Positions 40,389 through 57,227 of a stretch of DNA of 64,000 nucleotides are shown one piece after another (position 1 is the stretch's first letter; each line of letters opens with the position of its first letter). This DNA comes from Betaproteobacteria bacterium. Its GTDB lineage: Bacteria > Pseudomonadota > Gammaproteobacteria > Burkholderiales > CAIKXV01. Location: positions 186,001 through 250,000 of the forward strand of contig CANGYF010000003.1 in assembly GCA_947458265.1 (NCBI GenBank), in the 5' to 3' direction. The notes below the pieces were generated by a model. It saw nothing but the letters and a program-made list of their open reading frames with translations. It was not told where the DNA came from and did no database searches. Made by a program: the position numbers and the translations under genes.

Positions 40389-41561
40389 ATGATCCCCTAT
40401 GGCCGGCAGTCGATCTCGGAAGAGGACATCGCGGCAGTTACTGCCGTGCTCCGGTCGGATTTTATCACCCAGGGGCCGGTCGTACCTGCGTTCGAAAAAG
40501 CGGTCGCGGCGTATGTCGGTGCGCAGCACGCCGTGGCGGTCAACAGCGCGACCAGCGCATTGCACATCGCGTGTCTCGCGCTCGATGTAGGCGCAGGCGA
40601 TGTGGTTTGGACCACGCCCGTCACGTTCGTGGCAAGCGCAAACTGTGCCGTCTATTGCGGCGCGAAGGTCGATTTCGTGGATATCGATCCACGCACGTAC
40701 ACGCTCTGTCCCGAGCGTCTGGCCGAGAAACTCGAAGCGGCGAAACGCACGGGCCAGTTGCCTAAAGTCGTCATTCCCGTCCATCTTGCCGGGCAATCTG
40801 CGGACATGAAGGCGATCCGCGAACTCGGCCAGCGCTACGGATTCCGGATCATCGAAGACGCCTCCCATGCCATTGGCGGGAGCTACCTCGGGCGCAAGGT
40901 CGGCGATTGCTCCTACAGCGACATCGTGGTGTTCAGCTTCCATCCCGTGAAGATCGTCACCACGGGTGAAGGCGGCATGGCGCTGACGAACGATGCGCAG
41001 ATTGCCAAGCGTATGGCGCGCCTGCGCAGCCATGGCATCACCCGCTACCCGGCCGAGATGGAGAATCCGCCGGACGGCTCCTGGTACTACGAACAGATAG
41101 AGCTTGGATTCAACTACCGGATGACCGACATACAGGCGGCGCTCGGCTTGAGCCAGATGGATCGGCTGGATGCATTTGTGGCTGCCCGGCACTCGATCTC
41201 GGCACGCTACGAGGAATGGCTGGCACCCCACGCGATCACTCGTCCCTGGCAGCATCCCGATACGCATTCGGCGCTGCATCTTTACATCGTCCGCGTGCCC
41301 CCCGGCAGCGCGTATGGCAGCCACCGCGAAGTCTTCGAGCGCCTGCGCGCCGACGGAATCGGCGTCAACCTGCACTACATTCCGGTCTATCGCCAGCCCT
41401 ACTACCGCCGCATGGGGTACGCAGTCACCGACTTCCCCAATTCGGAGCAGTACTACCGCGAAGCGATCAGCCTGCCGATCTTCCCGGGCCTGTCCGAGGC
41501 CGAGCAGTTGCAGGTGGTGCGTTGCCTGACCCGGCCCTCCGGCTATCAGACCCTGTTCTGA
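40389..41561 (+). CDS. pseC: UDP-4-amino-4,6-dideoxy-N-acetyl-beta-L-altrosamine transaminase (PseC)
   Basis: A 390-residue DegT-type PLP aminotransferase. MIPYGRQSISEEDIAAV at the start, SDFITQGPVVPAFEKAVA, DASHAIGG, FSFHPVKIVTTGEGG with the PLP Lys, and LHYIPVYRQPYYRRMGY are characteristic of PseC. It aminates C4 of the 4-keto sugar made by PseB. It is the first gene of the plus-strand cassette. The pseB gene normally just before it is absent; see the CapE-type gene on the opposite strand. Confidence 0.93.
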   Translation: MIPYGRQSISEEDIAAVTAVLRSDFITQGPVVPAFEKAVAAYVGAQHAVAVNSATSALHIACLALDVGAGDVVWTTPVTFVASANCAVYCGAKVDFVDIDPRTYTLCPERLAEKLEAAKRTGQLPKVVIPVHLAGQSADMKAIRELGQRYGFRIIEDASHAIGGSYLGRKVGDCSYSDIVVFSFHPVKIVTTGEGGMALTNDAQIAKRMARLRSHGITRYPAEMENPPDGSWYYEQIELGFNYRMTDIQAALGLSQMDRLDAFVAARHSISARYEEWLAPHAITRPWQHPDTHSALHLYIVRVPPGSAYGSHREVFERLRADGIGVNLHYIPVYRQPYYRRMGYAVTDFPNSEQYYREAISLPIFPGLSEAEQLQVVRCLTRPSGYQTLF

Positions 41562-41596
41562 CCTGCGTGCTCCGCTGGTCCTCCTGCAGGCTCCCC

Positions 41597-41965
41597 ATGA
41601 TTCAGTGCACCGTCCTCGACCTGCCCACGTTCAGCGATCCGCGTGGAGCTCTGACCGTGCTCGACCACGCGTTGCCGTTTGTGCCGGTGCGTACCTACTG
41701 GATCTACGGCGCGGACGGTCATACCCGCGGCGGGCACCGTCACAAGCTTTCGCGTCAGGCGCTGGTCGCGATTCAAGGCAGCGTCAGCGTGTTCATGAAT
41801 GACGGCATCGAGCATGGCGATATCGTGCTCGATTCGCCGGCGCGCTGCCTGCTGGTGGAGCCGCATCACTGGCACACGATGACATTCGGCCCGGGTTCGA
41901 TCCTGCTCGTGATGTCCTCGCAGCCCTACGACCGCGCAGACTATATCGACGAGCCCTATGACTGA
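41597..41965 (+). CDS. FdtA/QdtA-like dTDP-sugar 3,4-ketoisomerase (cupin)
   Basis: A 122-residue cupin. YWIYGADGHTRGGHRHKLSR and SPARCLLVEPHHWHTM match the RGxHxHK and WxxM pattern of FdtA/QdtA and WxcM-type sugar 3,4-ketoisomerases. These enzymes move the keto group of dTDP-4-keto-6-deoxyglucose from C4 to C3. The next gene is a matching aminotransferase, which overlaps it by 8 bases. The substrate could be the product of the rmlA/rmlB genes in the same locus. Confidence 0.85.
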   Translation: MIQCTVLDLPTFSDPRGALTVLDHALPFVPVRTYWIYGADGHTRGGHRHKLSRQALVAIQGSVSVFMNDGIEHGDIVLDSPARCLLVEPHHWHTMTFGPGSILLVMSSQPYDRADYIDEPYD

Positions 41966-43094
41966 GCCGGCTGCGGGCGCCGTGGCGCCCATCGAGTACG
42001 AACAACTGGCCCGCTCGAATGCGGGATTCATCGACGAAATGCAGGCGGCCGCGGCGCGCGTGATCCGTGGGGGCTGGTACGTGCTCGGCGAGGAAGTGCG
42101 CGCCTTCGAACAGGAATTCGCGGCCTGGGTCGGTGCCCGGCACTGCGTCGGCGTGGCCAACGGCCTCGACGCGCTGCAGTTGTCGTTCGAGGCGCTCGAC
42201 TTGCCGCGCGGGTCGGGCGTGCTGGTAGCTTCCAACAGCTATATTGCGACGATACTGGCGATCCTTCGAGCCGGACTGGTGCCGGTTCTGGTCGAGCCAG
42301 ACCCGGAAACGTTCAATACCGACCCGAAGCGCCTGCAGGCCGCGCTGGCGCCGGGCGTTCGGGCCCTCTGCGTCACCCATATGTTCGGCAAGGCCTGCCG
42401 AATGGACGCGATCGGCGATTTCGCGCGCGAGCATGGCCTGCGCGTGGTCGAGGATTGCGCCCAGTCGCACGGCGCGAAGCTGGGCGGACGCACCACGGGG
42501 ACTTTCGGTGATGCCGGTTGTTTCAGCTTCTATCCGACGAAGAACCTCGGTGCCCTGGGTGACGCCGGTGCCATCGTCACCGATGACGCGGCGCTTGCCG
42601 AGCGGCTGCGCCACACGCGCAACTACGGATCGCTGCAGAAGTACGTGAACGTCTATCCGGGTACCAACTCGCGGCTGGACGAGATACAGGCCGCCATGCT
42701 GCGGGTCAAGCTGCGGTCGCTCGATTCGATCACCGCACACAAGCGCATGCTCGCCGCGCGCTACTTCGATGCGCTTGGCCCGGTTTCGGCGACCGGCGCG
42801 CTGGTGCTGCCTCGGCAGCGTGCCGACGAGTTCGACGTCTTTCACATCTTCGGCATCCGGCATCGCCGTCGCGACGCGCTGCGCGAGCACCTTCTCGCGC
42901 GCGGGATACGCACCGAAATACACTACCCGATACCGCCCTACCGGCAGCAGGCGATGGCCGGTGTGCTGTCGGGCGACTGGCCCATCTCCGATGAACTGCA
43001 TGCGACCGAACTCAGCCTGCCGATTTCGATCGGCCACACGCCGGCGGAAGTCGACCGGGTCGCCGCCGCAGTGGCGGCCTTCGGTGCCGGCTGA
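41958..43094 (+). CDS. FdtB/QdtB-like dTDP-3-keto-6-deoxyhexose 3-aminotransferase
   Basis: A 378-residue DegT-family PLP enzyme. GWYVLGEEVRAFEQEFA, VANGLDALQLSFEAL, EDCAQSHGA, FYPTKNLGALGDAGAIV with the PLP Lys and NYGSLQKYVN...NSRLDEIQAAMLRVKL are the FdtB/VioA-like pattern. With the preceding ketoisomerase it would make a dTDP-3-amino-3,6-dideoxyhexose (Fuc3N or Qui3N). The expected N-acetyltransferase (FdtC/QdtC) is not recognisable next to it. Confidence 0.88.
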   Translation: MTEPAAGAVAPIEYEQLARSNAGFIDEMQAAAARVIRGGWYVLGEEVRAFEQEFAAWVGARHCVGVANGLDALQLSFEALDLPRGSGVLVASNSYIATILAILRAGLVPVLVEPDPETFNTDPKRLQAALAPGVRALCVTHMFGKACRMDAIGDFAREHGLRVVEDCAQSHGAKLGGRTTGTFGDAGCFSFYPTKNLGALGDAGAIVTDDAALAERLRHTRNYGSLQKYVNVYPGTNSRLDEIQAAMLRVKLRSLDSITAHKRMLAARYFDALGPVSATGALVLPRQRADEFDVFHIFGIRHRRRDALREHLLARGIRTEIHYPIPPYRQQAMAGVLSGDWPISDELHATELSLPISIGHTPAEVDRVAAAVAAFGAG

Positions 43095-43121
43095 GTCCGG
43101 CCGCCGGCCAGGGGGCGCTCG

Positions 43122-43817
43122 ATGAATGTCGCGGTGATTCCCGCGCGGGGCGGCAGCAAGCGAATTGCGCGCAAGAATGTCCGCGCGTTCGCGGGCCGGC
43201 CGCTGATCGAGCGCGCGATCGAGACGGCTCGCAGCAGCGGCTGCTTCGATTCGATTCTGGTATCCACCGACGACGCGCAGATCGCGTCGATCGCGAGCGC
43301 AGCGGGAGCACGGGTGCCCTTCATGCGCCCAGCCGAACTTTCGGACGACTTCACCGGCACGATCCCGGTGATACGGCATGCAGTGCAATGGCTGGTCGAG
43401 CACGACGAGGCGCCCGAGTTCGTTTGCTGCCTGTACCCGGCAGCAGTGCTGCTGGAGGCCGCTGCGCTGGCCGATGCGCTCGCGCTGATGCGCACCAGCG
43501 GCCGTGATTTCTGCTTCGGTGCGGTGGCCTACCCGCACCCGATCCAGCGCGCCCTCGTGATTGGGCACGATGGTACGGCCAGCATGCTGGATCCGGCCCA
43601 GGCGCAGCGCCGCACGCAGGACCTTCAACCGACGTTCCATGACGCCGGGCAGTTCTGCTGGGGGAGCGCCAGTGCGTTCCTGCGCGGCGGCTCTCCGCTG
43701 GTCGAGGGGGCCGCGGCGCTGGTGCTGTCCCGGTTGCGGGTGGTCGACATAGACACCGAGGAAGACTGGCAGCACGCCGAGGCGCTGTACGCGGCGCTGG
43801 GCGCCGCCGGGAAGTGA
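43122..43817 (+). CDS. pseF: Pseudaminic acid cytidylyltransferase
   Basis: A 231-residue CMP-nonulosonate synthetase beginning NVAVIPARGGSKRIARKN, with FAGRPLIERAIETA, VSTDDAQIA, TGTIPVIRHA, and GQFCWGSASAFL. It activates pseudaminic acid as CMP-Pse. Pathway context (pseC, G, H, I) supports the assignment over neuA. It ends overlapping the GTG of pseG. Confidence 0.92.
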   Translation: MNVAVIPARGGSKRIARKNVRAFAGRPLIERAIETARSSGCFDSILVSTDDAQIASIASAAGARVPFMRPAELSDDFTGTIPVIRHAVQWLVEHDEAPEFVCCLYPAAVLLEAAALADALALMRTSGRDFCFGAVAYPHPIQRALVIGHDGTASMLDPAQAQRRTQDLQPTFHDAGQFCWGSASAFLRGGSPLVEGAAALVLSRLRVVDIDTEEDWQHAEALYAALGAAGK

Positions 43818-44884
43818 GCGTGCGGGTCGCCTTTCGCATCGATGCCTCGGCGGCGCTCGGCGCCGGGCACGCTATGCGCTGTCTGGCGCTCGCCGACGCG
43901 CTGGCCGAAAGGGGGGCGCGCTGCAGTTTCGTGGCCATTGGCCCGACGCCGGAACTGTCGGCGATCTTCTCGGGCGCGATGCATCCTTTATGCCTGATCA
44001 ACGCGTGCGCGGAAATCGATCCCGTGCGGGATGCCGCCGAGTTCCTCGCGCACCTCCCGGTTGATACCGATTGGGTCATCGTGGATCACTACCAACTCGA
44101 CGCCCGCTGGGAGTCGATTGTGCGGCCGCATGTCCGACGACTGCTGGTGATCGACGATCTGGCCGATCGCGCGCATGACTGCGACCTGCTGCTCGATCCC
44201 GGTCCGGCACGGATCCCGTCCGATTATCGGCAATGGGTGTCGGCGCAGACCACGCTGTTGCTCGGGCCGGCGTACGCGCTGCTGCGTCCCGCTTTCCGGG
44301 CCCGCCATGCCTGTGCGCCGTCCTGGCCGCAATCGCGTCGGGTGCATGTGTTCGTCGGTGGCGGTGGCCACCTCCATGCCCTGCCGATGCTGTGCAATGC
44401 GCTGCTCGATGTCGATCCGAAGTTGATCGCGGTCGCCGCTGGCTCGGCTGACCCAGGCGCGATGTCTGCGCTGAGCACCGTATTCCCCGGCCGGATCGAA
44501 TGGCAGCCACATGTCGCCGACATGGCGGCCCACATGGCGGCCTGCTCATTGGCAGTCGGGTCACCCGGTGGCGCCACGTGGGAACGTGCTTGCCTGGGGC
44601 TGCCGTCCGCGCTGCTGGCCACGTCGACAAATCAGCAGCCGGTTCTGCGTACCCTTGCAGCCCTCGGGTTGTGTGTCGATCTCGGGCTGGTCGGCGCGCG
44701 ATCGCCAGCCACGCTGAAGTCCGCCCTGCAGTCGTTCCTCGACGATGTAGGACGGCTCGGCGAGATGCGCGAGCGGATGCTGCGTGCAGTCGACGGGCTG
44801 GGCAGTGCTCGCGTCGCCGACTTCATCGCAGGAGCGAGTGCGGGCGCGGATACCGGCGGGATCACGGAGGGGGCGGTGCGATGA
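43814..44884 (+). CDS. pseG: UDP-2,4-diacetamido-2,4,6-trideoxy-beta-L-altropyranose hydrolase (PseG)
   Basis: A 356-residue GT-B-like hydrolase. VAFRIDASAALGAGHAMRCL, VDHYQLDARWE, LVIDDLADRAHDCDLLLDP and AVGSPGGATWERACLGLPS match PseG, which removes UDP before the PseI condensation. GTG start in a GTGA overlap with pseF; stop overlaps the ATG of pseH. Confidence 0.92.
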   Translation: MSVRVAFRIDASAALGAGHAMRCLALADALAERGARCSFVAIGPTPELSAIFSGAMHPLCLINACAEIDPVRDAAEFLAHLPVDTDWVIVDHYQLDARWESIVRPHVRRLLVIDDLADRAHDCDLLLDPGPARIPSDYRQWVSAQTTLLLGPAYALLRPAFRARHACAPSWPQSRRVHVFVGGGGHLHALPMLCNALLDVDPKLIAVAAGSADPGAMSALSTVFPGRIEWQPHVADMAAHMAACSLAVGSPGGATWERACLGLPSALLATSTNQQPVLRTLAALGLCVDLGLVGARSPATLKSALQSFLDDVGRLGEMRERMLRAVDGLGSARVADFIAGASAGADTGGITEGAVR

Positions 44885-45390
44885 GCGGGCAATCGGTGCT
44901 GCGCGCGCATCATCCGGACCAGGATCCGGCGACCGTTGCCTGGCTGAACTCGGACGATCTGCGGGCGTCGTTCGGCCTGCGTCGCATCCTCACGCTGGAA
45001 GGTCATCGCCAATGGCTGCGCGCGGCCGACGATGTGCTGCTGCTCGCGATCATGGACGACAAAGGCGTGCATGTCGGGAATACGCTGCTCAAGATGAACC
45101 GGATGCATCGTTCGGGCTACTTCCAGATCTACATCGGTGTTCCCGAGGCGAGAGGCCACGGTATCGGGCGGGCGGCGCTTGCAGGAATGCTCGCGCGTGG
45201 GTTCGACGAGCACGGACTGCATCGTATCTGGCTGCATACGTTCCCCCATAACGTGCGCGCCGAGGCGCTCTACCGCAGCCTCGGATTCGTGCACGAAGGT
45301 GTCGAGCGGGATGCCATCTACGCCGATGGGCATTACGTCAGCCAGAACCGGTGGTCGCTGCTCGAACACGAATGGCGGGCCGCACGGTGA
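44881..45390 (+). CDS. pseH: UDP-4-amino-4,6-dideoxy-N-acetyl-beta-L-altrosamine N-acetyltransferase (PseH)
   Basis: A 169-residue GNAT acetyltransferase. VGNTLLKMNRMHRSGYFQIYIG and EARGHGIGRAALAGML (acetyl-CoA loop) fit PseH, which acetylates the C4 amine. ATGA overlap with pseG. Some specificity for the FdtB product is possible because no other acetyltransferase is seen; that is inference. Confidence 0.88.
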   Translation: MSGQSVLRAHHPDQDPATVAWLNSDDLRASFGLRRILTLEGHRQWLRAADDVLLLAIMDDKGVHVGNTLLKMNRMHRSGYFQIYIGVPEARGHGIGRAALAGMLARGFDEHGLHRIWLHTFPHNVRAEALYRSLGFVHEGVERDAIYADGHYVSQNRWSLLEHEWRAAR

Positions 45391-45452
45391 TGCGCCCATT
45401 GCCGTCCTCCAGTCGTGCCGCCCTGCGCGCCGCGCGACGCGAGGCCTGATCC

Positions 45453-46175
45453 ATGCGTTGCGCGATCATGCAGCCGACGTACCTGCCTTGGGCGGGTTAC
45501 CTCCACCTCATGGCCGGCGTCGATTGCTTCGTCTACCTCGATGACGCGCAGTTCGAGCGATCCTCCTGGCAACACCGTAACCGCCTCCTCGTCGGCGGGG
45601 CTGCGTCATGGTTGACTGTTCCCGTGCTTCGCGGATTCCTCGGCGAGACCATCGAGCAGGTGCGTGTCGCGGACAACCAGCCCTGGCGGCACAAGCATCT
45701 CGGAACCCTGGCGGCGGTATACGGCCGCCATGCGCATTACGCGGAAGTGCGCGAACTGATTGCCTTGCTGGAGAACCGCGACCTCGGGACGCTTGCCGAC
45801 CTGAATATCGCACTGCTCGATTCGATGCGCATCCAACTCGACATCCGGACCCCGGTATTGAGATCCAGTCGACTCGGCGTGCCGGGCACCCGGACCGAGA
45901 GGCTGATCAGGATACTGGAGGGGCTGGGCGCCACCGAGTACGTCACGCCGCCCGGTGCATTGGGGTATCTTCGCGAAGACCGATTCACGCAGAATTGCGG
46001 CATACGGCTTCTCGTGCACGATTTCACGCCGCCGCCGTATCCGCAGCGGGGCGGTGGGGCGTTCGTCAGCCATCTCTCCATCATCGATGTCGTCGCACAC
46101 CTCGGATGGCTTGCGGCCCGAAGCTACATCAGGCCGCCGTTGCCCGGGTGCCAGCCTGCCGAGGAAGTACCATGA
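45453..46175 (+). CDS. wbqC: WbqC-family protein
   Basis: A 240-residue WbqC-like protein: CAIMQPTYLPWAGYLHLMAGVD at the start, DDAQFERSSWQHRNRL and a Pro-rich PPGALGYL segment. The family occurs in O-antigen and nonulosonate loci; its catalytic role is not established. Its stop overlaps the next methyltransferase start (ATGA). Confidence 0.85.
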   Translation: MRCAIMQPTYLPWAGYLHLMAGVDCFVYLDDAQFERSSWQHRNRLLVGGAASWLTVPVLRGFLGETIEQVRVADNQPWRHKHLGTLAAVYGRHAHYAEVRELIALLENRDLGTLADLNIALLDSMRIQLDIRTPVLRSSRLGVPGTRTERLIRILEGLGATEYVTPPGALGYLREDRFTQNCGIRLLVHDFTPPPYPQRGGGAFVSHLSIIDVVAHLGWLAARSYIRPPLPGCQPAEEVP

Positions 46176-47077
46176 ACACGAAGGCGCAATACCGGCTCGA
46201 GCCGCATGAGCAGTTCGGATTCCTGCAGATCAAGCCCGTGCCCAGCGCGGAGGAGATTGCCCGTTTCTACGCCGAGGAGTTCTACAGCGGGCAGTACCGG
46301 TACTTCAACAACTCCGCACGGGAAGTACAGGAGGCCGATCAGGCCTTCCACGACGGGCATCGCGCGGATGTGTGCGCGCGCATCGAGAGCCTGCGAGGTC
46401 ATCCGATCGCGGGTGCCACCGTGCTGGATATCGGATGCGGATGGGGCCTCACGCTGAAGTACCTGCAGGCGCGAGGCGCACGATGCGCTGGTTTCGATCC
46501 GGCGCCCGAAGCGGTGGACTACGTCCGCTCCTGCGGTATCGAGTGCGTCCAGGGCGGCATGGACCGGATGGACGTATTCGGAGACCGCCGGTTCGACGTG
46601 GTGATGCTGATGAACGTGCTCGAGCATCTGTCTGATCCGGTGCAGGTGCTGCGGCAGATCCATGGCCAGTTGCTGGCGCCGGGCGGCGTGCTTGTCATCG
46701 AGGTGCCGAACGAGTTCAACGCGTTCCAGCTCGCCGCCCAGGAGGTATACGGCCTGGATTCGTGGTGGGTGGCGCCTCCGGCGCACCTGAATTACTTCAA
46801 CCCGGCGACCCTTCGCAGGCTGGTCGAGGGCAGCTCGATGCGCGTGGCCCATGAAGAAGCATCGTTCCCGATGGAAATGTTCCTGCTCATGGGGCAGAAC
46901 TACGTCGGTACGCGTGAACTCGGCCGTACCTGCCACGAGTCGCGTATGGCATTCGAGGCGAATCTTCGCCGCACCGGGCATTCCGACGCGCTGTCTGCCT
47001 TCTACCAGGCGCTCGCTGCAGCTGGCCTGGGTCGACAGGTGATCGCCTATGCCATGCCTGTAGCTGCCGCGGCATGA
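46172..47077 (+). CDS. Class I SAM-dependent methyltransferase
   Basis: A 301-residue protein with an N-terminal region of about 80 residues (FYAEEFYSGQYRYFNNS) before SAM motif I TVLDIGCGWGLTLKYLQARG; then VMLMNVLEHLSDPVQVL and LAPGGVLVIEVPNEFNAF. Similar enzymes are common beside WbqC. The target is unknown; a sugar or nonulosonate O- or N-methylation is possible. ATGA overlaps link it to WbqC and to the metallo-hydrolase gene. Confidence 0.8.
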   Translation: MNTKAQYRLEPHEQFGFLQIKPVPSAEEIARFYAEEFYSGQYRYFNNSAREVQEADQAFHDGHRADVCARIESLRGHPIAGATVLDIGCGWGLTLKYLQARGARCAGFDPAPEAVDYVRSCGIECVQGGMDRMDVFGDRRFDVVMLMNVLEHLSDPVQVLRQIHGQLLAPGGVLVIEVPNEFNAFQLAAQEVYGLDSWWVAPPAHLNYFNPATLRRLVEGSSMRVAHEEASFPMEMFLLMGQNYVGTRELGRTCHESRMAFEANLRRTGHSDALSAFYQALAAAGLGRQVIAYAMPVAAAA

Positions 47078-48381: not shown

Positions 48382-48383
48382 CG

Positions 48384-49445
48384 ATGAGTGCCAGCACAGG
48401 CTTCGAAATCGCCGGGCGCCGGATCGGACGGGATGCACCACCGTTCATCATCGCGGAGATGTCGGGCAACCACAACCACTCGCTCGAGCGCTCCTTGAGC
48501 ATCGTCGATGCCGCGGCCTCCGCGGGCGCGCACGCACTGAAAATCCAGACATTCACCGCAGACACGATGACACTGGATCTCGCCGACGGTGATTTCCTAG
48601 TTTCCGACAAGAATAACCTCTGGCACGGCACGACGCTCCATTCCCTCTACGAGGATGCGCATACGCCCTGGGAATGGCACCAGCCCATCTTCGATCGCGC
48701 GGCGCAGCGCGGCCTCATCGCCTTCAGCACGCCTTTCGACGCGACCGCCGTCGATTTCCTCGAGTCCCTGCACACTCCGTTCTACAAGATTGCGTCCTTC
48801 GAGAATACCGACCTCGAACTGATACGCAAGGTGGCGTCGACCGGGAAGCCGATGCTCATCTCCACGGGCATGGCATCCGTTTCCGAACTGGAGCGTGCGG
48901 TCACTGCGGCGCGCGAGTCTGGTTGCCGCGATCTCGTACTGCTCAAGTGCACCAGTTCATACCCGGCGACCCCGGAGCAGAGCAATATCGCGACGCTGCC
49001 TCACATGAGGGACATGTTCGCGTGCGAGGTTGGCCTGTCCGACCACACGATGGGCGTTGGTGCTGCTGTGGCTGCAGTCGCGTTTGGTGCGACTGTCATC
49101 GAAAAGCATTTCACCCTGTCGCGCGCCGAGGGCGGCGTTGATTCGGCCTTCTCGCTCGAGCCGGCCGAGATGAAGGCGCTCGTGGTCGAGACCGAGCGTG
49201 CGTGGCAATCGATCGGGCATGTATCCTACGGACCCAGCGCGTCCGAGCGCCGGTCGCTCATTTATCGCCGCGGACTTCGCGTGGTCTCCGACCTCAATCC
49301 GGGGGATGTGATCACCCGGCAGAACGTGCGTGCCATCCGCCCCGGTGGGCCGCTCTCCAGCGGTGAGTGGTCTCTGGTACTCGGCCGTATAGTGAAGAAA
49401 GCTGTTCGGCGCGGCGACCCGTTGACCTGGGACCTGCTGGGGTGA
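48384..49445 (+). CDS. pseI: Pseudaminic acid synthase
   Basis: A 353-residue NeuB-family synthase. PPFIIAEMSGNHNHSLERSL, ALKIQTFTADTMT, FSTPFDATAVDFLE, STGMAS, KCTSSYPATPEQSN, GLSDHTMGVG and EKHFTLSRAEGGVDSAFSLE are PseI-like. The C-terminal SAF/antifreeze-like domain has VVSDLNPGDVITRQNVRAIRP. It condenses the 6-deoxy-AltdiNAc sugar with phosphoenolpyruvate. The start at 48384 follows TGAGGATC. Confidence 0.94.
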   Translation: MSASTGFEIAGRRIGRDAPPFIIAEMSGNHNHSLERSLSIVDAAASAGAHALKIQTFTADTMTLDLADGDFLVSDKNNLWHGTTLHSLYEDAHTPWEWHQPIFDRAAQRGLIAFSTPFDATAVDFLESLHTPFYKIASFENTDLELIRKVASTGKPMLISTGMASVSELERAVTAARESGCRDLVLLKCTSSYPATPEQSNIATLPHMRDMFACEVGLSDHTMGVGAAVAAVAFGATVIEKHFTLSRAEGGVDSAFSLEPAEMKALVVETERAWQSIGHVSYGPSASERRSLIYRRGLRVVSDLNPGDVITRQNVRAIRPGGPLSSGEWSLVLGRIVKKAVRRGDPLTWDLLG

Positions 49446-49496: not shown

Positions 49497-51104
49497 TTGT
49501 CCCGATCTGAAGACGCGCCTGTGCCCCGGTGGGTCATGCGTGTGCGGTCATTATGCATGGCAGACCCGCTGCTCACACCAGCGACATTCGATGTCATCGG
49601 TGCTCGTCGTGCGAGGCAAGACGCACCACGCGATGCGATACCGGGCACGACGGCAGCAGTGCAACTGGTTTACGACCGGTTCTACGTCCTGCTGTTTGGT
49701 GCGCTCGTGGCGCGCATGCGCGAACATGGCTTGACGGATTCGCGACTGGTAGCCATCGCTGGTTCCGGGGCGATGGGGCGGGGATGGCGCGCGCGCGCGG
49801 CTCGCGGCGCCGTCGCGGCGAGGTTGCGTGATGCGCCATGGATAAGGGCTTACGGCAACCTTGTGGATGGCGTCGGTTGCAGAATGGTTGGTTCCGTGTC
49901 GCCGTTCGAGTGGATCGCCGAAAGAAGGCTCGCGCGGGAACTCTGGTCGACGCTGCGCGCCAGTCCAGCCCCGTCGACGCTGCGCGTGGATGGCATCGAA
50001 CTGCTCGATCTGCTGATCGATTCCTATCTGCGGCTCAGCCCGTCACCGCGCTTCGATGCATGCGATCCGTTGGTGCTGGATCTCCTCTGCGCGTCCATAC
50101 GTGCGGTACGCCGTGCCAGTGCCTGGTTCGCGGCGGTTCGTCCGCGCGTGTACCTGACCTCGTATACAAGCTACCTGGCGCACGGGATTCCCGTGAGGGT
50201 CGCACTGGCGCAGGGCATTCCCGTGTGGTCGTTCGGCAACCTCGGGCGCTTCGGCAAGCGACTGACCCAAGACGATCCGTTCCACACGCGAGACGCGTCC
50301 GACTATGCGCGCAGGTTCGCCATGCTGCCCGGGACCGAGGTCCGCCTGGACGAGGCGAGGGCAGGGCTGGAGTCCCGGCTTTCTGGCACCGTTGACGCGG
50401 CGACCAGCTACATGCGGCGATCAGCCTACTCTTATTCAGAGTCGGACCTGCCTGATGGACTCGCGGGGGCGGTAGTTGTGTTCCTGCATGACTTCTACGA
50501 TAGTCCGCACGTTTTCCCGGATCTGGTCTTCCCCGACTTCTGGTGCTGGCTCGCGGTGACGGTCGAGACGCTCGAAGAAGCGGGCATCGCCTGTTTCCTG
50601 AAGCCGCATCCCAACCAGATCGTTGACAGCGATCAGGCTGTCGCCGAGTTTCGCGCCGCCTATCCTGCTGCTCGCTGGTTGACGGCGGAGGCGAGCAATG
50701 CCCGGCTGGCGCGTGCGGGCATCGCGTGCGGTGTGACTGTTTACGGCACGGTCGCGCACGAGTTGGCTTACCTCGGGGTGCCGAGCATTGCCTGTGCGCG
50801 TCACCCGCATCACTCGTTCGGATTCTGCCGTACTGCGAGCAGCCTCCCCGAATACAAGGCTCTGCTGCGCGACGCGAGGGTCGTGCCGTTGCCGCGGGAG
50901 ACGATGCAACGCGAGGCGCTTGCCTTCTACTACATGCACAATCTGGAGGGTTCCGACGTGGAGCGCGAACTGCGAGACGGTTTCGTCGAGTTTTGGCGTG
51001 CGTCGAATGTGAAGCCATGCACGGACGAACGATTGCTCGATGCGTTCCAGCGATTTGTCGGGCTTCCGTCATTCACTACGTTCGCGCGCGCGCTCATTTC
51101 CTGA
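49497..51104 (+). CDS. Putative capsule/surface-glycan glycosyltransferase
   Basis: A 535-residue protein without recognised N-terminal domain. The C-terminal half has VVFLHDFYDSPHVFPDL, CFLKPHPNQIVDSDQ and CGVTVYGTVAHELAYLGVPSIA, which is the KpsC/KpsS-like and capsule GT-B pattern; the HPNQ and SxS/T-type loops are typical donor-site features. The position right after pseI makes transfer of the nonulosonate (CMP-Pse) a reasonable idea, not shown. The start is not certain: a TTG at 49497 has GGGGAC upstream, and ATG at 49536 or 49557 are alternatives. Confidence 0.6.
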   Translation: MSRSEDAPVPRWVMRVRSLCMADPLLTPATFDVIGARRARQDAPRDAIPGTTAAVQLVYDRFYVLLFGALVARMREHGLTDSRLVAIAGSGAMGRGWRARAARGAVAARLRDAPWIRAYGNLVDGVGCRMVGSVSPFEWIAERRLARELWSTLRASPAPSTLRVDGIELLDLLIDSYLRLSPSPRFDACDPLVLDLLCASIRAVRRASAWFAAVRPRVYLTSYTSYLAHGIPVRVALAQGIPVWSFGNLGRFGKRLTQDDPFHTRDASDYARRFAMLPGTEVRLDEARAGLESRLSGTVDAATSYMRRSAYSYSESDLPDGLAGAVVVFLHDFYDSPHVFPDLVFPDFWCWLAVTVETLEEAGIACFLKPHPNQIVDSDQAVAEFRAAYPAARWLTAEASNARLARAGIACGVTVYGTVAHELAYLGVPSIACARHPHHSFGFCRTASSLPEYKALLRDARVVPLPRETMQREALAFYYMHNLEGSDVERELRDGFVEFWRASNVKPCTDERLLDAFQRFVGLPSFTTFARALIS

Positions 51105-51167: not shown

Positions 51168-52385
51168 ATGAATGTCTCTGCGCTGCTTGAACAGAACTAC
51201 GATTCGCACCCGGCGTTCCGCTTCGACGCGCCGGCGTTCGACGTGGAGCAGTCGTTGGTTGCGGACTTCGACAACGCCTACAAGGCCGTGTGCAGGTTCG
51301 GGGGGGAGCTCAACCCATCGGCGCGCGGCAGGCTGCAGCGGCAGGCCAAGGCGGCGCTCGACGAGGTGTTCCGCACGATGGCTGCCCAGTGCTCCGATGA
51401 GTTCGAGCGGATCTTCGTGAGCGAACTTGCGGCCGAATGCGCCCGCCTGATGGCTGAAGAGTTCGCCTGGTACATCCGGCCGCCGGCGCTGGGTCGGTTG
51501 AGGCTCGATTCCGATGAGGCGATCGAAGCCGCGGTGGAACTGTCGACCCGGAGGCATGTGCTTGGACGCCTGCCTGAATCGATCGTTGCTGAATTGCAGG
51601 CTATCGCTGCCGCTGATGTTTCGAAGTTCGAAGCCGCGGCCAGTGCCGGCCGGCTGCGCCGCAGCGACCTGTCCGTCGACCGCGGGCGAACCGTACGGCG
51701 CCTGATCGCCGCCCTTAACCGGGCGTTCGCTTCACTAGGCATGCTGGAAGCGGTCAGTGCGTATGTCGGCCGCTCCACTCGCGTGGTGGGGTTATCCCTG
51801 GAACTGTCCGTTGCCCAGTCGAGTTGGTGGAAGAACGCTATCGAAGGTTTGCCGCGCCCGCCCCAGACCCTCTACGCGCACCTGGACGAATCGATATCCT
51901 TTCCGAAGGCCATCGTGTATCTCACCGACGTGACGGATAGCCACGGACCGACTGGTTGTTATCCGCAGGTCTACGAGCACCTCGGTTGCGGACCGTTGCA
52001 GGAGATCGTCGGGCGAGTGGTCGGGAACGCGGGCAACGACCCGCGCTCGCCACTCCATGCCTACTACGCCAAGGCCTATCATCAGTCCATGGCCTCCGAA
52101 CCTTTCCGCCGCCACTTCATGCGCCTGCCACGCCCGCTGCGATTCAATTCCCACTTCGGCTGGGACGTGATGCCCGGTGGCGAACTCGAGGGCGAAGTTG
52201 CGTCTCAAGAGCGCCGCATGATCGGGCCGGCTGGAACCTTCATCGTGTTCGACGGGGCCCGGCTGCTGCATCGCGGAGGTCTTATCAGTGAAGGGCGACG
52301 CGTCGCCTTGCAGGTTGTTTTTTCTGATATCACCCTGTCGCGCCGCGTCTGGGGGCGGTTGAAAAGGACGGTCGGATGGGCCTGA
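51168..52385 (+). CDS. Phytanoyl-CoA dioxygenase-like Fe(II)/2-oxoglutarate protein
   Basis: A 405-residue protein. HLDESISFPKAIVYLTDV contains the HxD iron ligands, and LLHRGGLISEGRRVALQVVF the distal His and the 2-oxoglutarate Arg. These features place it with PhyH-type dioxygenases, which hydroxylate many small molecules. A long N-terminal helical part (about 200 residues) has no clear family match. It overlaps the FkbM gene by 10 bases. The role in this locus, perhaps hydroxylation of a sugar or lipid carrier, is inference. Confidence 0.72.
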   Translation: MNVSALLEQNYDSHPAFRFDAPAFDVEQSLVADFDNAYKAVCRFGGELNPSARGRLQRQAKAALDEVFRTMAAQCSDEFERIFVSELAAECARLMAEEFAWYIRPPALGRLRLDSDEAIEAAVELSTRRHVLGRLPESIVAELQAIAAADVSKFEAAASAGRLRRSDLSVDRGRTVRRLIAALNRAFASLGMLEAVSAYVGRSTRVVGLSLELSVAQSSWWKNAIEGLPRPPQTLYAHLDESISFPKAIVYLTDVTDSHGPTGCYPQVYEHLGCGPLQEIVGRVVGNAGNDPRSPLHAYYAKAYHQSMASEPFRRHFMRLPRPLRFNSHFGWDVMPGGELEGEVASQERRMIGPAGTFIVFDGARLLHRGGLISEGRRVALQVVFSDITLSRRVWGRLKRTVGWA

Positions 52386-53320
52386 TGCAGTCTTTCCGCG
52401 GATTTGTGCCGAAGCGGTTGAAGAACCGGTTGAGGTCGGTCACGCAGCCCTGGAGGATTGCGGCAGCGCTATCGCCTCATGTGCCGGGCGCGGTGTGCGT
52501 CGATGTCGGCGCGTCTTTCTATCCGCACGAGAAGTGGTTGCCTTTCCTGCTGTCACCCGCTACGTCATGGATCGCCGTCGAGCCCAATGCGGCGAATCTT
52601 GGCTATCTGCACAATTGGGTGTGGCCTTGCAGGGTACGCGCCTGCACGACTGGCTTGAGCCGGGAGGGCGGCATCCAGACGCTCTACGTCACGAACGTCG
52701 ATACTGGTTCCAGCCTGCTGCCGCCCGAGATTCCGGCGTCAATGAAGCACCGTGTCACCAACCTCGACTACTTCTTTCCGGTGGTGGAGCGTCCGATCGA
52801 GACGATGACGCTGGAGCACGTCGTCCGCGAGGAAGCTCCTGGTTCGCCGATCTTCGTCAAGCTCGATACGCAGGGCACGGAGTTGTCGATCCTGCAGGGT
52901 GCCCATGCCATGCTGGAGCAGCATCGCATCGTCGGGATCGAGATGGAGGCGACGTTGCTCGCGCAGCCTCTGATGCGCGGGGCAGGGCTTTTCTGGGAGG
53001 CTTGCGAATACCTGCAAGGGCTCGGATATGAACTGCTCGACGTGAAGCCGATCCGCGCGGTTGGCCTGAGCGGGCGTCCAGCCCAAGGCTACCGTACCTA
53101 CCTCAACGAATGCGACGCAGTGTTCGCCCTGCGCCCGGACGTGGCGATGACCGTACCTGTCGAGCGCCGCGTCGGGCTGCTCTGTTTCTACCTGGCGAAC
53201 CTGCTCTACGAGGAAGCGCTCTCGACGATTGAACGGGATGCCCAGGTCGTCATGCTACTGCGTGAGCGGGGATGCGATATCGAGGGCTTTGCCGCGCTGC
53301 TGCGATCGGCAATCAAATGA
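52376..53320 (+). CDS. FkbM-family methyltransferase
   Basis: A 314-residue protein. AVCVDVGASFYPHEKWLPF, WIAVEPNAANLGYL, IFVKLDTQGTELSILQGA and VGIEMEATLLAQPLM follow the FkbM order. FkbM enzymes methylate hydroxyl groups of sugars or polyketides. Coupled to the dioxygenase gene by overlap and to the ABC exporter by ATGA, so methylation of a newly made hydroxyl is a natural but untested idea. Confidence 0.82.
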   Translation: MGLMQSFRGFVPKRLKNRLRSVTQPWRIAAALSPHVPGAVCVDVGASFYPHEKWLPFLLSPATSWIAVEPNAANLGYLHNWVWPCRVRACTTGLSREGGIQTLYVTNVDTGSSLLPPEIPASMKHRVTNLDYFFPVVERPIETMTLEHVVREEAPGSPIFVKLDTQGTELSILQGAHAMLEQHRIVGIEMEATLLAQPLMRGAGLFWEACEYLQGLGYELLDVKPIRAVGLSGRPAQGYRTYLNECDAVFALRPDVAMTVPVERRVGLLCFYLANLLYEEALSTIERDAQVVMLLRERGCDIEGFAALLRSAIK

Positions 53321-55089
53321 GTCGCCGGGCGGTGAATACCGACGCTTCGGAGTTCCAGTCCGGTGTGCCCCAGGATCCCCCGGCCAAGCCGGGAGGGCTG
53401 CTGCTCGACGCAAGGCAACTCGCGGCATACATCGTCTATGTCGCGCGCACGTTCAAGGCGTTCCACCTCGTCGTCGCCATGACGCTGCTCGCTCTCGTGC
53501 TCGAGTATGCGGCGACCAGCCTGATGATTCCGCTCGCACCAGGTAATGTCGCAGCCGAATCTGCGGTAACGGCCTTCTGGACGAGCGTGGCGGTGGTTTT
53601 GGGTCTGGAGCCCGTGCCGCGCACCTGGTTGTGGCTGTTCGTCATCGTCCTGCTGGCCCGCGTCGCGATCGGCTACGTGCTGGCGGTGCTGTCCACATGG
53701 CTCGGAAAGCGGGTGCATCGCGCACTTTCGGGCAAGGTGTTTGCCCATATCGTCATGGCCGAGCCTATGAGCCGGGTCTACACCCGTACGGTCGGCCATT
53801 ACATCACGATGGCCGGCGACGATACGTTCAAGAGCGGGACGATCCTGGCAAACCTGATGCAAGCAGCCGTGGGCGCTGCGACCGCAACTGTAGCCCTTGC
53901 GGTGCTCTACCAGTTTTCGCCGGCATGGTTCTTCTGGGTTGCCGGCTTCCTCGCGGTCTCGCTCGCGGGTATCAGCCTGCTGATGAATCGGGTTCTCGCG
54001 ATCAATGCCCGCGCAGTCGACTTGTCGCGCGAACTCGGCACTACGTTCATCGAGGCGCTCAACAGCCTGCGTTCGATCCGGTCGCTGCAGGCGGGTTCCT
54101 TCGTGATCCAGACGTATGCAAGCCAGATTCGGACGTACGTCCGCATGCTCGTGGCCATCGATGCGATCAAGTCGGCCGTGCGTACGGCGCCTGCAATCGG
54201 TCTTCTGCTCATTGCCGCGATCTTGTTGCGGCCAGGTTCGGATGTCGAGGCTGCCGCCGGGACTCTGATCGCCGCGACGGTGATCGTCATTCGCGTGTTT
54301 GCTGCCCTTGGCCAGATGGTCACAGCTGGCGCCCAGGTGTTTACCGACATTCGTGCGGTGAAGGATATCGGCGCCCTGGTCGAACTGGCTTCGCGCGAAC
54401 CCGTGTCATCGACGGTGGTGCCCGCGCCTGAAGTGCGGTCGATCACGCTGCGCGACGTCTGGTTCGGCTATGGTGAGCGCGGACAGGTATTGTCCGGTAT
54501 CGACTTCCGGTTCGATGCCGGCCGCACCTACGCGATCGTCGGTCCCTCGGGTGCGGGAAAATCCACCCTTGCCGATATCTTGCTCGGGCTTACCACGCCT
54601 GACCGCGGTGAGGTCCTCGTTAACGACGGGGCCGTTGACCTGGTGGTTGCCCGGCGCCGGTTTGCGCTGGTCGAGCAGCAGTCGAAGATCTTCTCGACCA
54701 CGCTTCGCGAAAACCTCCTGCTAGGGACGCAGGCGTCCGAGGCGGTGCTCCACGAGGCGCTCGATGTCGTAAGCCTCGGTGACCTGGTTCGCGGCCTTGG
54801 CGAGGGTTTGGACACTCGATTGAGCTACCTGGGCGAAAACTTCTCGGGTGGCCAGCGTCAACGGCTGGGTATCGCGCGCGCGCTCGTGCGCAACCCGCAG
54901 GTGCTGATCCTCGACGAGGCGACCAGCGCACTCGATCGGCATGTGCGTACCGAACTGGTTTCCCGGCTGCGTGAACGCATGAGTGCCGGGATCATCGTTT
55001 TCATCACGCACGACCCGGCGATCGAGGATATCGCTGACGAAATCCTGCGCGTCGATCCGGTAGCGGCCCACGGAGGGGAGCCCAGATGA
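53317..55089 (+). CDS. ABC exporter (PglK/MsbA-like flippase)
   Basis: A 590-residue half-transporter. About six membrane helices (LVVAMTLLALVLEYAATSL, WLWLFVIVLLARVAIGYVLA and others) are followed by a nucleotide-binding domain with Walker A VGPSGAGKST, signature FSGGQRQRLG, Walker B VLILDEATSALD and H-loop FITHD. Its place between sugar-tailoring and glycosyltransferase genes suggests a lipid-linked glycan flippase like PglK, rather than lipid A transport, which msbA covers. It overlaps neighbours on both sides as ATGA. Confidence 0.83.
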   Translation: MSRRAVNTDASEFQSGVPQDPPAKPGGLLLDARQLAAYIVYVARTFKAFHLVVAMTLLALVLEYAATSLMIPLAPGNVAAESAVTAFWTSVAVVLGLEPVPRTWLWLFVIVLLARVAIGYVLAVLSTWLGKRVHRALSGKVFAHIVMAEPMSRVYTRTVGHYITMAGDDTFKSGTILANLMQAAVGAATATVALAVLYQFSPAWFFWVAGFLAVSLAGISLLMNRVLAINARAVDLSRELGTTFIEALNSLRSIRSLQAGSFVIQTYASQIRTYVRMLVAIDAIKSAVRTAPAIGLLLIAAILLRPGSDVEAAAGTLIAATVIVIRVFAALGQMVTAGAQVFTDIRAVKDIGALVELASREPVSSTVVPAPEVRSITLRDVWFGYGERGQVLSGIDFRFDAGRTYAIVGPSGAGKSTLADILLGLTTPDRGEVLVNDGAVDLVVARRRFALVEQQSKIFSTTLRENLLLGTQASEAVLHEALDVVSLGDLVRGLGEGLDTRLSYLGENFSGGQRQRLGIARALVRNPQVLILDEATSALDRHVRTELVSRLRERMSAGIIVFITHDPAIEDIADEILRVDPVAAHGGEPR

Positions 55090-56228
55090 AGATTGCTATC
55101 CTCGACACCTACTATCCCGATGTGCTGTCTGCCCGCTACCGCAGCGAGCCCGGGCTCGCGCTGACAGGGTATGCGAACCAGCATGCCGCGCTGATTGCGC
55201 TGGCCTTCGGCACTTCGGATTTCTATTCACGTCACCTTAACGATCTGGGCCATCAGGCGAGCGACCTGATCGTCAATTGCGAACCGCTGCAGCGTGCATG
55301 GGCGCGCGAAACGGGCGTGCGCGTGGCTGCAGCGCAGATGCGCATCCCACATCGGTATTTCCGCCTGCCCGTAATCGGATCAATGGCTTGTGCGCTGTCG
55401 GGGTTCTCGCGGATCGCGTTGGCGCAGCTAGAGGCGCTGCAGCCGGATATCCTCTACTGCCAAGACCTCTGGTTCATGACGCCCCAACTGGCGCGGCGCC
55501 TGCGCCCGCATGTGGGCCGCATCGTCGGACAGACGGCCAGTCCCCTGCCTCCACCCGAGTACCTGGCCAGTTACGACCTGATCGTCACGTCGTTCCCACA
55601 TTATGTGCCCCGCCTGCGAGCGCTCGGCATTGCGGCTGAGTACCTGCCTATCGCCTTCGAACCCGCGGTGCTCGATCGCATCGGGACGGTCAAGCGCGAT
55701 ATCGGGGCCAGTTTTGTCGGCGGAATCAGCCGTCATCACGGGCGCGCGCTGCCCATGCTGGAATACCTCGCGCGCAATACACCGATCGAGTTCTTCGGCT
55801 ATGGCGCCGAGCGGCTCGGGTACGACTCGCCGATACGTGAACGCCACCACGGCGAAGCCTGGGCGCTTGACATGTACCGCGCGATCGCCCGGAGCCATGT
55901 GACCTTCAACAGGCACATCGATGTCGCCGAGGATAATGCGAACAACATGCGTTTGTACGAGGCGACCGGTGTGGGTACCTTGCTGATCACCGACAGCAAG
56001 CGGAACCTCGCGCAGCTGTTCGAGCCAGGTCGGGAAGTAGTCGTCTATTCGGACGCAGAGGAAGCGGCACGCCTGATTCGTCACTATCTCGAGCATCCGG
56101 ACGAGGCGGCAGAGATCGCCCGGGCCGGGCAGGCTCGGACGCTGCGCGAGCATACCTATCGCCAGCGCATGGAGTCGCTCGTGCCAATGCTCGAAAGATG
56201 CCTCGAGCAGCCTCGGCGGCCAGGCTGA
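55086..56228 (+). CDS. CgeB-like glycosyltransferase
   Basis: A 380-residue GT-B-type protein. The C-terminal part has NNMRLYEATGVGTLLITDS, LFEPGREVVVYSDAEEA, and REHTYRQRM, matching the CgeB/Glyco_trans_1_2 region. The N-terminal half contains ILYCQDLWFMTPQLARRL and SYDLIVTSFPHYVP. The donor is unknown. Start in an ATGA overlap with the ABC gene. Confidence 0.75.
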   Translation: MKIAILDTYYPDVLSARYRSEPGLALTGYANQHAALIALAFGTSDFYSRHLNDLGHQASDLIVNCEPLQRAWARETGVRVAAAQMRIPHRYFRLPVIGSMACALSGFSRIALAQLEALQPDILYCQDLWFMTPQLARRLRPHVGRIVGQTASPLPPPEYLASYDLIVTSFPHYVPRLRALGIAAEYLPIAFEPAVLDRIGTVKRDIGASFVGGISRHHGRALPMLEYLARNTPIEFFGYGAERLGYDSPIRERHHGEAWALDMYRAIARSHVTFNRHIDVAEDNANNMRLYEATGVGTLLITDSKRNLAQLFEPGREVVVYSDAEEAARLIRHYLEHPDEAAEIARAGQARTLREHTYRQRMESLVPMLERCLEQPRRPG

Positions 56229-56240
56229 GGGGCCGTATCG

Positions 56241-57227
56241 ATGCCATTCTTCTGCACGCTTTTCGATAGCAACTATCTGGTCAAGGGGCTGGCGATGCTG
56301 CGCTCGCTCGCTGCACATTGCCCCCAGTCGCAGACATACGTCCTTTGCATGGACGAGGAGGCACGCAGGCTGCTCGATCGGATCGATCCGCCGGGTACAG
56401 TACGCCTTTCGCTGTCGGATATTGAAGATGAGGCCCTGCTCGCGGTGAAGCCGGGCCGTAGCCTCGCCGAGTACTGCTGGACGCTCTCGCCCTGCCTGCC
56501 GTGGTACCTGCTCGAGCGCTATCCCGAGATCGACGGCATCACCTACCTCGACGCTGATTTGTACTTCTTCGCGCCCGTCGAGCCGCTGTTCTGGGAGATC
56601 GGCCCCGCATCCATCGCGGTGATTGAGCACCGGTTCGTCGAGCCGCTGCAGCACCTGGAGATCCGCGGGCGCTTCTGCGTCGAGTGGGTGGGCTTCCGGC
56701 GCGACGAGCAGGGCCTCGCCTGCCTGCGCCGTTGGCGCGAGCAGTGCATCGAGTGGTGCTTCTACAAGCTCGAGGACGACCGGATGGCGGACCAGAAGTA
56801 CCTCGACGCATGGCCCGCCCGGTATCCGTCGCTGCACGTGATCGGCCATCCGGGCGCCGGACTTGCACCCTGGAACTACGCGCGCTACCGCATCGAGGAG
56901 GCTGGTGCCGACCCCGACGGGCGTCCCATGTTCACCAGCGACGGCGAGCCGCTGATCTTCTACCACTTCCACCAGCTGCAGTTCCTGGAGAACGGTACCT
57001 TCGACCGGGCCTCGGCCGAGTACCTCGACACTGGCCCGCTACCGGTGCGGCTCTACGAGGTCTATGAGGCGGAGCTGCGGCGCACCTTCGAAGAGGTGCG
57101 CCGGCTGTCACCGGGCTTCTCCCGGGGACTGAGGCCAGTGCTGCGCGTGAAGTCGCAGCGGCTCGTCCAGCGCTTCCTGCCAAAATTCGTAAAGGAGTGG
57201 CTGAAGAAGGTCGTGGCCGCGGTCTGA
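56241..57227 (+). CDS. GT-A-fold glycosyltransferase-like protein
   Basis: A 328-residue protein. FFCTLFDSNYLVKGLAMLRSL at the N-terminus and ITYLDADLYFFAPVEPLF (DxD) indicate a GT-A nucleotide-diphospho-sugar transferase, related to GT8 or similar. It ends with a basic C-terminal helix. It is the last gene of the plus-strand run, 10 bases from the stop of the convergent methyltransferase. Confidence 0.72.
   Translation: MPFFCTLFDSNYLVKGLAMLRSLAAHCPQSQTYVLCMDEEARRLLDRIDPPGTVRLSLSDIEDEALLAVKPGRSLAEYCWTLSPCLPWYLLERYPEIDGITYLDADLYFFAPVEPLFWEIGPASIAVIEHRFVEPLQHLEIRGRFCVEWVGFRRDEQGLACLRRWREQCIEWCFYKLEDDRMADQKYLDAWPARYPSLHVIGHPGAGLAPWNYARYRIEEAGADPDGRPMFTSDGEPLIFYHFHQLQFLENGTFDRASAEYLDTGPLPVRLYEVYEAELRRTFEEVRRLSPGFSRGLRPVLRVKSQRLVQRFLPKFVKEWLKKVVAAV

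Follow-up and report, generated by a model that had tools for sequence, protein, structure and literature searches.

Gene content of the cassette and its flanks

The 64,000-nucleotide stretch of Betaproteobacteria bacterium DNA analysed here, hereafter the window, is part of a 328-kb contig (C3) in a 4.0-Mb genome that is 97% complete (G000). Between positions 40389 and 57227 it carries a cassette of sixteen genes, all on the plus strand and flanked on both sides by minus-strand sugar blocks; neighbouring genes overlap by 4-10 bases at 8 of the 15 junctions, and the widest gap is 63 bases (the start of the 535-residue gene being uncertain). The original prediction had described just such a one-direction block set between two minus-strand glycan blocks. 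In itself the cassette is an unremarkable member of a familiar class. What sets it apart is a conserved module of three genes, encoding a WbqC-family protein, a methyltransferase and a metallo-beta-lactamase (MBL) fold protein, with the pseudaminic acid (Pse) derivative that it implies, together with the repeated absence of PseB near capE-capF-capG. The genes are listed below in map order; curated NCBIfam cut-offs were applied to the pse genes, and fdtA, the fdtB-type aminotransferase and WbqC exceed their Pfam cut-offs.

33311-35218, minus: WbpM-like long dehydratase, left flank
35426-36559 (start approximate), minus: capG/fnlC-type UDP-N-acetylglucosamine (UDP-GlcNAc) 2-epimerase family protein of the flanking N-acetyl-L-fucosamine (L-FucNAc) operon (PF02350)
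36577-37728, minus: capF/fnlB-type reductase with cupin-type C-terminus, flank (PF14667 and PF01370)
37725-38870, minus: capE/fnlA UDP-GlcNAc 4,6-dehydratase of the L-FucNAc operon, which may take the place of PseB (PF02719/PF08485)
38920-40185, minus: glycosyltransferase on the conserved left side of the variable site (PF13692/PF13579), present in the same-genus genomes G002, G003 and G010
40389-41561, plus: pseC aminotransferase (TIGR03588, 559 bits, cut-off 423.5)
41597-41965, plus: fdtA/qdtA-type dTDP-keto-sugar isomerase (PF05523, E 3.5e-30)
41958-43094, plus: fdtB/qdtB-type aminotransferase (PF01041, E 6.8e-95), its probable substrate taken from the pairing with fdtA
43122-43817, plus: pseF CMP-Pse synthetase (TIGR03584, 285 bits, cut-off 206)
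43814-44884, plus: pseG UDP-sugar hydrolase (TIGR03590, 212 bits, cut-off 154)
44881-45390, plus: divergent pseH-like GNAT acyltransferase (PF13302/PF00583; TIGR03585, 46 bits, cut-off 93)
45453-46175, plus: WbqC-family protein, predicted BshC-like amide ligase (PF08889, E 1.5e-59; AlphaFold2 model)
46172-47077, plus: class I S-adenosylmethionine (SAM) methyltransferase of the tailoring module (PF13489, E 2.5e-25)
47074-48381, plus: MBL-fold protein related to the NamH type but without a Rieske domain (hhalign 100% over 402 columns; AlphaFold2 model)
48384-49445, plus: pseI pseudaminic acid synthase (TIGR03586, 459 bits, cut-off 340)
49497-51104 (start uncertain), plus: 535-residue protein, possibly a capsule-type glycosyltransferase by eye, no Pfam match
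51168-52385, plus: 405-residue protein resembling phytanoyl-CoA dioxygenases by eye alone; Pfam and PDB sequence searches gave nothing meaningful
52376-53320, plus: FkbM-family methyltransferase (PF05050, E 4.6e-12)
53317-55089, plus: ATP-binding cassette (ABC) exporter that may flip a glycolipid; the matches listed include models for type I secretion, CydC, MsbA and PglK, all of them under their cut-offs
55086-56228, plus: glycosyltransferase (PF13524, E 2.5e-35)
56241-57227, plus: putative glycosyltransferase at the right cassette edge (weak PF01501, E 0.09); identity to G002 drops here
57238-58095, minus: methyltransferase-like protein, right flank (PF08242, E 1.9e-4, 22.5 bits, below the cut-off of 30)
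58144-61664, minus: rmlD, rmlC, rmlA and rmlB, dTDP-sugar supply, conserved right flank (PF04321, PF00908, PF00483, PF16363)

The original prediction had also placed fdtA/fdtB-type genes between pseC and pseF, and WbqC, methyltransferase and MBL genes between a pseH-like gene and pseI. Pfam and NCBIfam matches bear out the former arrangement, which is not unique, as a Comamonadaceae locus (L059) likewise has fdtAB between pseC and pseF. The latter is also found, with pseH assigned by position and fold.

A tailoring module conserved in pse loci

The genes for WbqC, the methyltransferase and the MBL protein are kept together as a conserved module of pse loci. Scanning a genome collection with the MBL family returned 39 loci. 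Of these, 11 from outside the genus resemble the window protein at 46-66% identity across at least 288 residues, and all 11 lie among pse genes. Ten of these 11 have the methyltransferase, in each case beside the MBL gene, ten have WbqC (partial in L055) and ten have pseI (partial in L061); L058 lacks methyltransferase and WbqC matches, and L059 ends before pseI. Judged from record titles, five of the hosts are Rhizobacter, Variovorax, Comamonadaceae, Oxalobacteraceae and another Betaproteobacteria record, and the others are Rhodospirillaceae, Pelagibacteraceae, and Gammaproteobacteria, Methylococcales, Bdellovibrionales and Roseiflexus metagenome-assembled genomes (MAGs). The association of the module with pse genes thus spans Proteobacteria (Beta-, Gamma- and Alpha-), Bdellovibrionota and Chloroflexota. 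The module mostly sits between pseH and pseI, with other orders in L057, L060 and L055. A twelfth locus, L063, belongs to G002. The remaining 27 loci, mostly haloarchaeal at 25-30% identity, have no pse set within 10 kb (tblastn, E 1e-6), save for partial cases (L086, L087, L088) and lone DegT-type matches (L065, L069, L083); L088, with pseI- and pseF-like genes near, stands outside the count of 11 because its match is 47% over 60 residues only. No DNA similar to the MBL gene was found in E. coli genomes. The MBL gene of L060 (2324-3613) is inverted relative to its neighbours, still within a pse locus, and that of the Roseiflexus MAG (L061, 2513-3804) is split over two frames, which may reflect an assembly error or a broken gene.

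The suggestion in the original prediction that the nonulosonate made here is perhaps modified gains support from this distribution across Beta-, Gamma- and Alphaproteobacteria, Bdellovibrionales and Roseiflexus contigs. Alternatively, the locus may be a conventional O-antigen cassette that produces the standard Pse5Ac7Ac and Fuc3NAc (N-acetylated forms of Pse and of a 3-amino-3,6-dideoxyhexose), in which the tailoring genes act on other glycan residues or on the lipid carrier. In favour of this, the gene layout is the usual one for O-antigen loci, and G003 and G010 show the site varying as those loci do. We nevertheless consider this unlikely: the module stays with pse genes in distant groups whose other glycan genes differ, and the GNAT falls far under the PseH cut-off.

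As to chemistry, all 10 of the WbqC members aligned match PF08889, other families reaching E 0.08 or worse. The AlphaFold2 model of the window protein (predicted local distance difference test score, pLDDT, 88.6) matches BshC (4wbd) on structural re-alignment with Z 14.7 and a root-mean-square deviation of 3.3 across 227 of its 240 residues; class I aminoacyl-tRNA synthetases follow at Z 12.8 and below. On this predicted model WbqC has a HUP-type catalytic fold. BshC joins cysteine to the amine of glucosamine, and a similar reaction by WbqC would link an acid to an amino sugar, a suggestion with moderate support. Three observations tell against it or temper it: Foldseek alone gave no significant match to the WbqC model, so that the BshC match comes from re-alignment only; a PDB sequence search with WbqC returned nothing; and identity to BshC is 9%, too low to place WbqC in the BshC family by sequence.

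Proteins from Nocardia, Rhodococcus and two proteobacteria, each with a Rieske domain at the C-terminus, can be aligned with the MBL-fold protein. Compared profile to profile (hhalign), its family matches four of these Rieske-bearing proteins at 100% probability and 16% identity over 402 columns that take in the MBL and C-terminal domains. Eight residues, H58, H60, D62, H63, D135, N149, N151 and D152, are identical in the Rieske-less and Rieske-bearing groups (a comparison that excludes the misframed L073 row; L087 was not used, and L061, in two frames, and L059 and L063, with truncated MBL genes, were left out of the MBL alignments). We take the actinobacterial Rieske-bearing type to be NamH, the UDP-MurNAc hydroxylase that yields N-glycolylmuramic acid, with CMAH as its animal counterpart; the alignment holds no characterised member. 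In the PDB profile search the best match is FrsH, a diiron monooxygenase (E 2.6e-8, residues 2-116).

These results point, with moderate support, to a hydroxylase of the diiron monooxygenase kind that would draw on an outside electron donor. A competing possibility, hydrolase activity (as an amidase, lactonase or deacylase) that trims an acyl group on a Pse intermediate, is a serious one, though we hold it to be the less probable. Hydrolases such as Igni18 and NAPE-PLD are the highest-Z fold neighbours of the AlphaFold2 model (pLDDT 88.8; Z about 22, against 19.5 for CmlA and 18.8 for FrsH), and the hydrolase SaxA tops the Foldseek list and comes second in the profile search (E 4.7e-6). Moreover, the protein has no Rieske domain for electron delivery: the CxH..CxxH motif is absent from the window protein, from its relative in L073 and from loci L052-L063, several of which are contig fragments. 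On the other side stand the match of nearly the whole protein, C-terminal domain included, to Rieske-bearing NamH-type proteins, the invariance of D135 across both groups, and the rank of FrsH as best profile match. The diiron hydroxylase CmlA has a carboxylate ligand, E377, as a possible counterpart of D135. A separate Rieske gene near the cassette is unsupported, as the single motif match in the window lies far away, at 11926, and none of the six Rieske matches in the genome is on contig C3.

Taken together, a WbqC ligase, an MBL hydroxylase and a SAM methyltransferase suggest an order of events in which an extra acyl group on Pse would be attached, hydroxylated and methylated, a proposal with moderate support. 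The rarity of the MBL family counts against it: at E 1e-30 the family occurs in 3 of the 370 genomes sampled from the class, and in only one, G000, of the 41 that have PseI.

Relatives of the MBL protein occur in other settings. Rieske-bearing versions lie, by eye, beside a UDP-GlcNAc 2-epimerase-like gene (L007, 556-2085, minus) and a nucleotide-sugar dehydrogenase-like gene (L100, 1501-3066), and these two are CMAH/NamH-like enzymes in other bacterial glycan loci. Haloarchaea and marine thaumarchaea (L009, L010, L064-L086) have Rieske-less members of the same family, and the annotated neighbours in L009 and L010 include sugar-nucleotide and polysaccharide genes.

The missing pseB and the neighbouring capE

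PseC, PseF, PseG and PseI all score above their curated cut-offs, and the GNAT, with half the bits demanded of PseH, owes its assignment to position and fold. No protein over the PseB cut-off (TIGR03589, 408 bits) was found in G000, where the best match is CapE at 285 bits, nor in G002; this absence went unmentioned in the original prediction. As a control, 41 genomes with PseI over its cut-off, G000 included, were obtained from 370 drawn from the class, with G002 added separately. PseB exceeds its cut-off in 38 of the 41 and is missing from G000, G639 and G527, and in all three of these capE-capF-capG lies near pseI, at about 9, 16 and 24 kb respectively. The association of PseB absence with CapE has a hypergeometric probability of 3.8e-4, or 3.9e-3 without G000, which prompted the idea, in genomes that are not independent draws. 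Identities to the window proteins in G639 and G527 are 55% and 64% for CapE, 30% and 46% for CapF, and 62% and 68% for CapG, and the cap genes of both genomes adjoin relatives of the window's left-flank glycosyltransferase and WbpM genes. The G527 contig starts inside pseI, so that upstream pse genes are outside view. Only one of the other 38 genomes (G630, 276 bits) has a sub-cut-off match to the PseB model of the strength seen for CapE. Among the distant module loci, a PseB-type gene stands directly before pseC in L052, L053, L054, L056, L057 and L060, whereas L058 and L062 gave no match to such a gene ahead of pseC.

The window CapE has the PF02719 and PF08485 domain set with capF and capG adjacent, as expected of CapE/FnlA, and it groups apart from pse-linked PseB-type proteins. 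A methionine replaces the catalytic tyrosine in its active site (TDKAVYPINAMGMTK), whereas six related loci have PseB genes of the Tyr type; the replacement is not exclusive to CapE, being common to WbpM-type enzymes, and alone is therefore no proof of an inverting enzyme. CapE is a plausible source of the PseC substrate because it is reported (PMC3699295) to carry out the same dehydration and C5 epimerisation as FlaA1. Thus CapE probably supplies PseC in place of PseB, and with fair support the pathway would lean on the neighbouring L-FucNAc operon.

Two points count against this role. A figure legend of PMC7198725 describes FnlA as a 3-epimerase too, and with that activity the intermediate would be lost to PseC. 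In addition, a Met-type active site like that of CapE occurs in the non-inverting WbpM/PglF enzymes and in the window's WbpM-like protein. An alternative source of PseB activity might be the WbpM-like long dehydratase at 33311-35218, or a pseB gene that the assembly lacks. WbpM too is a UDP-GlcNAc 4,6-dehydratase, WbpM-like genes lie near CapE in all three PseB-less genomes, so that location alone does not discriminate between the two, and the assembly, at 97% completeness, is not closed. We judge this explanation improbable, since G639, in two contigs and rated 100% complete, also has CapE and no PseB over the cut-off, and since PMC8987622 places WbpM/PglF outside the C5-inverting group, which would give the wrong C5 configuration.

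Replacement between conserved flanks and relation to known systems

Ten same-genus genomes were searched, and the cassette genes occur together in one of them, G002. CapE is present in 7 of the ten and PseI in G002 only. Fifteen of the sixteen cassette genes in G002 are 93-98% identical in amino-acid sequence and the last is 85% identical, and the flanking genes seen are at 80-91%, save CapG at 97%. At the DNA level the cassette is about 92% identical (91-97% per 500 bases across 40.5-56.5 kb) and identity drops to 80% and then 73% within the last cassette gene; leftward it is 83-93% in the cap genes and 80-91% over 30-35.5 kb. The cassette thus has a sharp boundary on its right but not on its left. 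G003 and G010 each have the two flanks on a single contig, separated by about 20 and 32 kb respectively, with other genes between them. The stretch between (C331, 25.7-45.4 kb, in G003, with loci L034 and L026; C103, 18.8-50.4 kb, in G010, with loci L025 and L032) gave only weak matches to the cassette at tblastn E 1e-15, with no more than 39% identity: pseC-, wbqC- and rmlC-like genes in G010, and rmlC- and short-chain dehydrogenase/reductase (SDR)-like genes in G003. Among the alternative genes of G010 are a separate DegT-type aminotransferase and, at 28% identity, a WbqC-like gene. Different gene sets at one site across species indicate the behaviour of an O-antigen-type locus.

The gene-order comparison proposed in the original prediction came out as a variable site, and of its "mobile cassette" the exchange between conserved flanks and a shift in composition stand, with no integrase, tRNA or repeat signs in what was scanned. 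The window holds no tRNA and no long repeats bracketing the cassette, and the window proteins scanned, which do not cover every open reading frame (ORF), include no integrase or transposase; capture by an integrase or at a tRNA is unsupported on this basis. We prefer to take "mobile" in the sense of exchangeable between fixed flanks, as O-antigen loci are. This reading is weakened by the blurred left border, where the cap genes of G002 are as similar as the cassette at 83-93% DNA identity (CapG at 97% in protein), by the genomes searched, most of which are incomplete (83-100%), and by G002 itself, an 84%-complete MAG in which the cassette is split over two contigs breaking inside the MBL gene, so that its continuity is presumed. 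As a yardstick of divergence within the genus, rpoB was found in 4 of 7 genomes and was absent from G002. The G002 MAG (isolate LH-05nov19-259) was deposited as 'Bordetella parapertussis', a name that looks doubtful.

Base composition shifts at the cassette, in agreement with the expectation that a sliding window would reveal a contrast, though not of the size claimed. The cassette has a guanine-cytosine (GC) content of 64.4% overall (62.6-69.7% in 1-kb steps), against 69.1% for the genome background (twelve 12-kb samples; 1-kb standard deviation 2.2 points) and 68.3% and 67.7% for flanks 1-40300 and 57238-64000. The 53% and 68% quoted earlier are right for two 60-base lines (53.3% in the cassette, 68.3% in the rml operon), but the former is misleading, and a 53% GC island is rejected, as one 60-base line is unrepresentative of the cassette. 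Codon usage was assessed as GC at third codon positions (GC3), which averages 0.782 in the sixteen cassette genes and 0.850 both in 12 flank genes (Mann-Whitney p 5e-4) and in 72 background ORFs, the latter chosen by a rule favouring high GC3, so that the flank comparison is the fairer. The border in GC3 is not perfectly clean, because pseF (0.83) and the last cassette gene (0.85) are at flank level and rmlA (59656-60540; 0.715), the lowest of 28 window genes compared, is below every cassette gene; the other flank genes are at 0.82 or above.

The explanation that we favour, and hold to be probable, is of a replaceable cassette making CMP-Pse and a dTDP-3-amino-3,6-dideoxyhexose, in which CapE feeds PseC and the module gives an N-acyl-modified Pse. 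The cassette sits between a fixed L-FucNAc side (capGFE and a glycosyltransferase) and a fixed rmlDCAB side. CapE would perform the dehydration and C5 epimerisation of PseB and pass the product to PseC, and the cassette pse genes would go on to make CMP-pseudaminic acid. The substrate that fdtAB would require is the product of RmlA and RmlB, and from it they would form the dTDP-3-amino-3,6-dideoxyhexose; fdtC was not identified, which counts against this branch. In the manner of BshC, WbqC would couple a sugar amine to an amino acid or a carboxylic acid. The MBL protein, acting as a diiron monooxygenase that takes its electrons from an outside donor, would hydroxylate the attached group, and the methyltransferase would cap it, leaving an N-acyl-modified pseudaminic acid that the transferases and ABC exporter of the cassette may build into a glycan and move.

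A bolder version, tentative and in our estimate rather doubtful, is that these loci represent a branch of nonulosonate synthesis in which WbqC acylates the Pse amine and a Rieske-less relative of CMP-sialic acid hydroxylase oxidises the product to hydroxyacyl or N-glycolyl-like Pse, in a pathway that can drop PseB and use CapE. Among the open-access literature matches listed, titles and abstract openings describe neither the WbqC-methyltransferase-MBL module nor the sharing of CapE. If true, these ideas would give the WbqC family a testable activity, place a CMAH/NamH-type enzyme inside bacterial sialic-acid-like pathways, and show that an exchangeable glycan cassette can be trimmed to rely on a flank gene; pipelines that require PseB would then miss some pseudaminic acid producers.

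Other genes of the window call for brief comment. The 535-residue protein has a 43% identical relative near pseI in L052 and contains a KPHPN stretch that we take to be typical of capsule glycosyltransferases. By eye, the 405-residue protein has HxD...H...R residues resembling those of Fe/2-oxoglutarate dioxygenases, and a PDB sequence search returned a single weak, unrelated match. Five proteins had no match in PHROGs. At 61616-63652 lies a single long ORF whose SDR epimerase is confined to the C-terminal half, and its halves match separate segments in G010.

Our findings can be set beside several known systems. O-antigen and K-locus cassettes, such as the Acinetobacter K locus (PMC3628348), likewise have different gene sets between fixed flanks; in contrast to K-type loci, the pse genes here seem to need a flank gene for their first step. 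With the Pse pathway of Helicobacter pylori and Campylobacter jejuni (PseB-C-H-G-I-F) the cassette shares pseC, pseF, pseG and pseI, and it differs in having a divergent PseH, no PseB over the cut-off in the genome, the WbqC-methyltransferase-MBL genes between pseH and pseI, and fdtAB between pseC and pseF. All three genes of the L-FucNAc pathway (CapE-CapF-CapG or FnlABC) adjoin the cassette on the minus strand, and unlike in the usual pathway the first enzyme here appears to serve a second pathway too. WbqC resembles the bacillithiol ligase BshC in predicted fold and departs from it in sequence and in size (240 against 540 residues). The MBL protein shares its fold with the diiron beta-hydroxylases CmlA and FrsH, which act on amino acids in peptide antibiotic pathways, unlike this protein of a glycan locus. 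It can also be compared with the Rieske-bearing proteins that we take to be of the NamH and CMAH type, which are homologous to it through the MBL and C-terminal domains and have the same metal-site residues, whereas the cassette protein has no Rieske domain and lies within pse loci.

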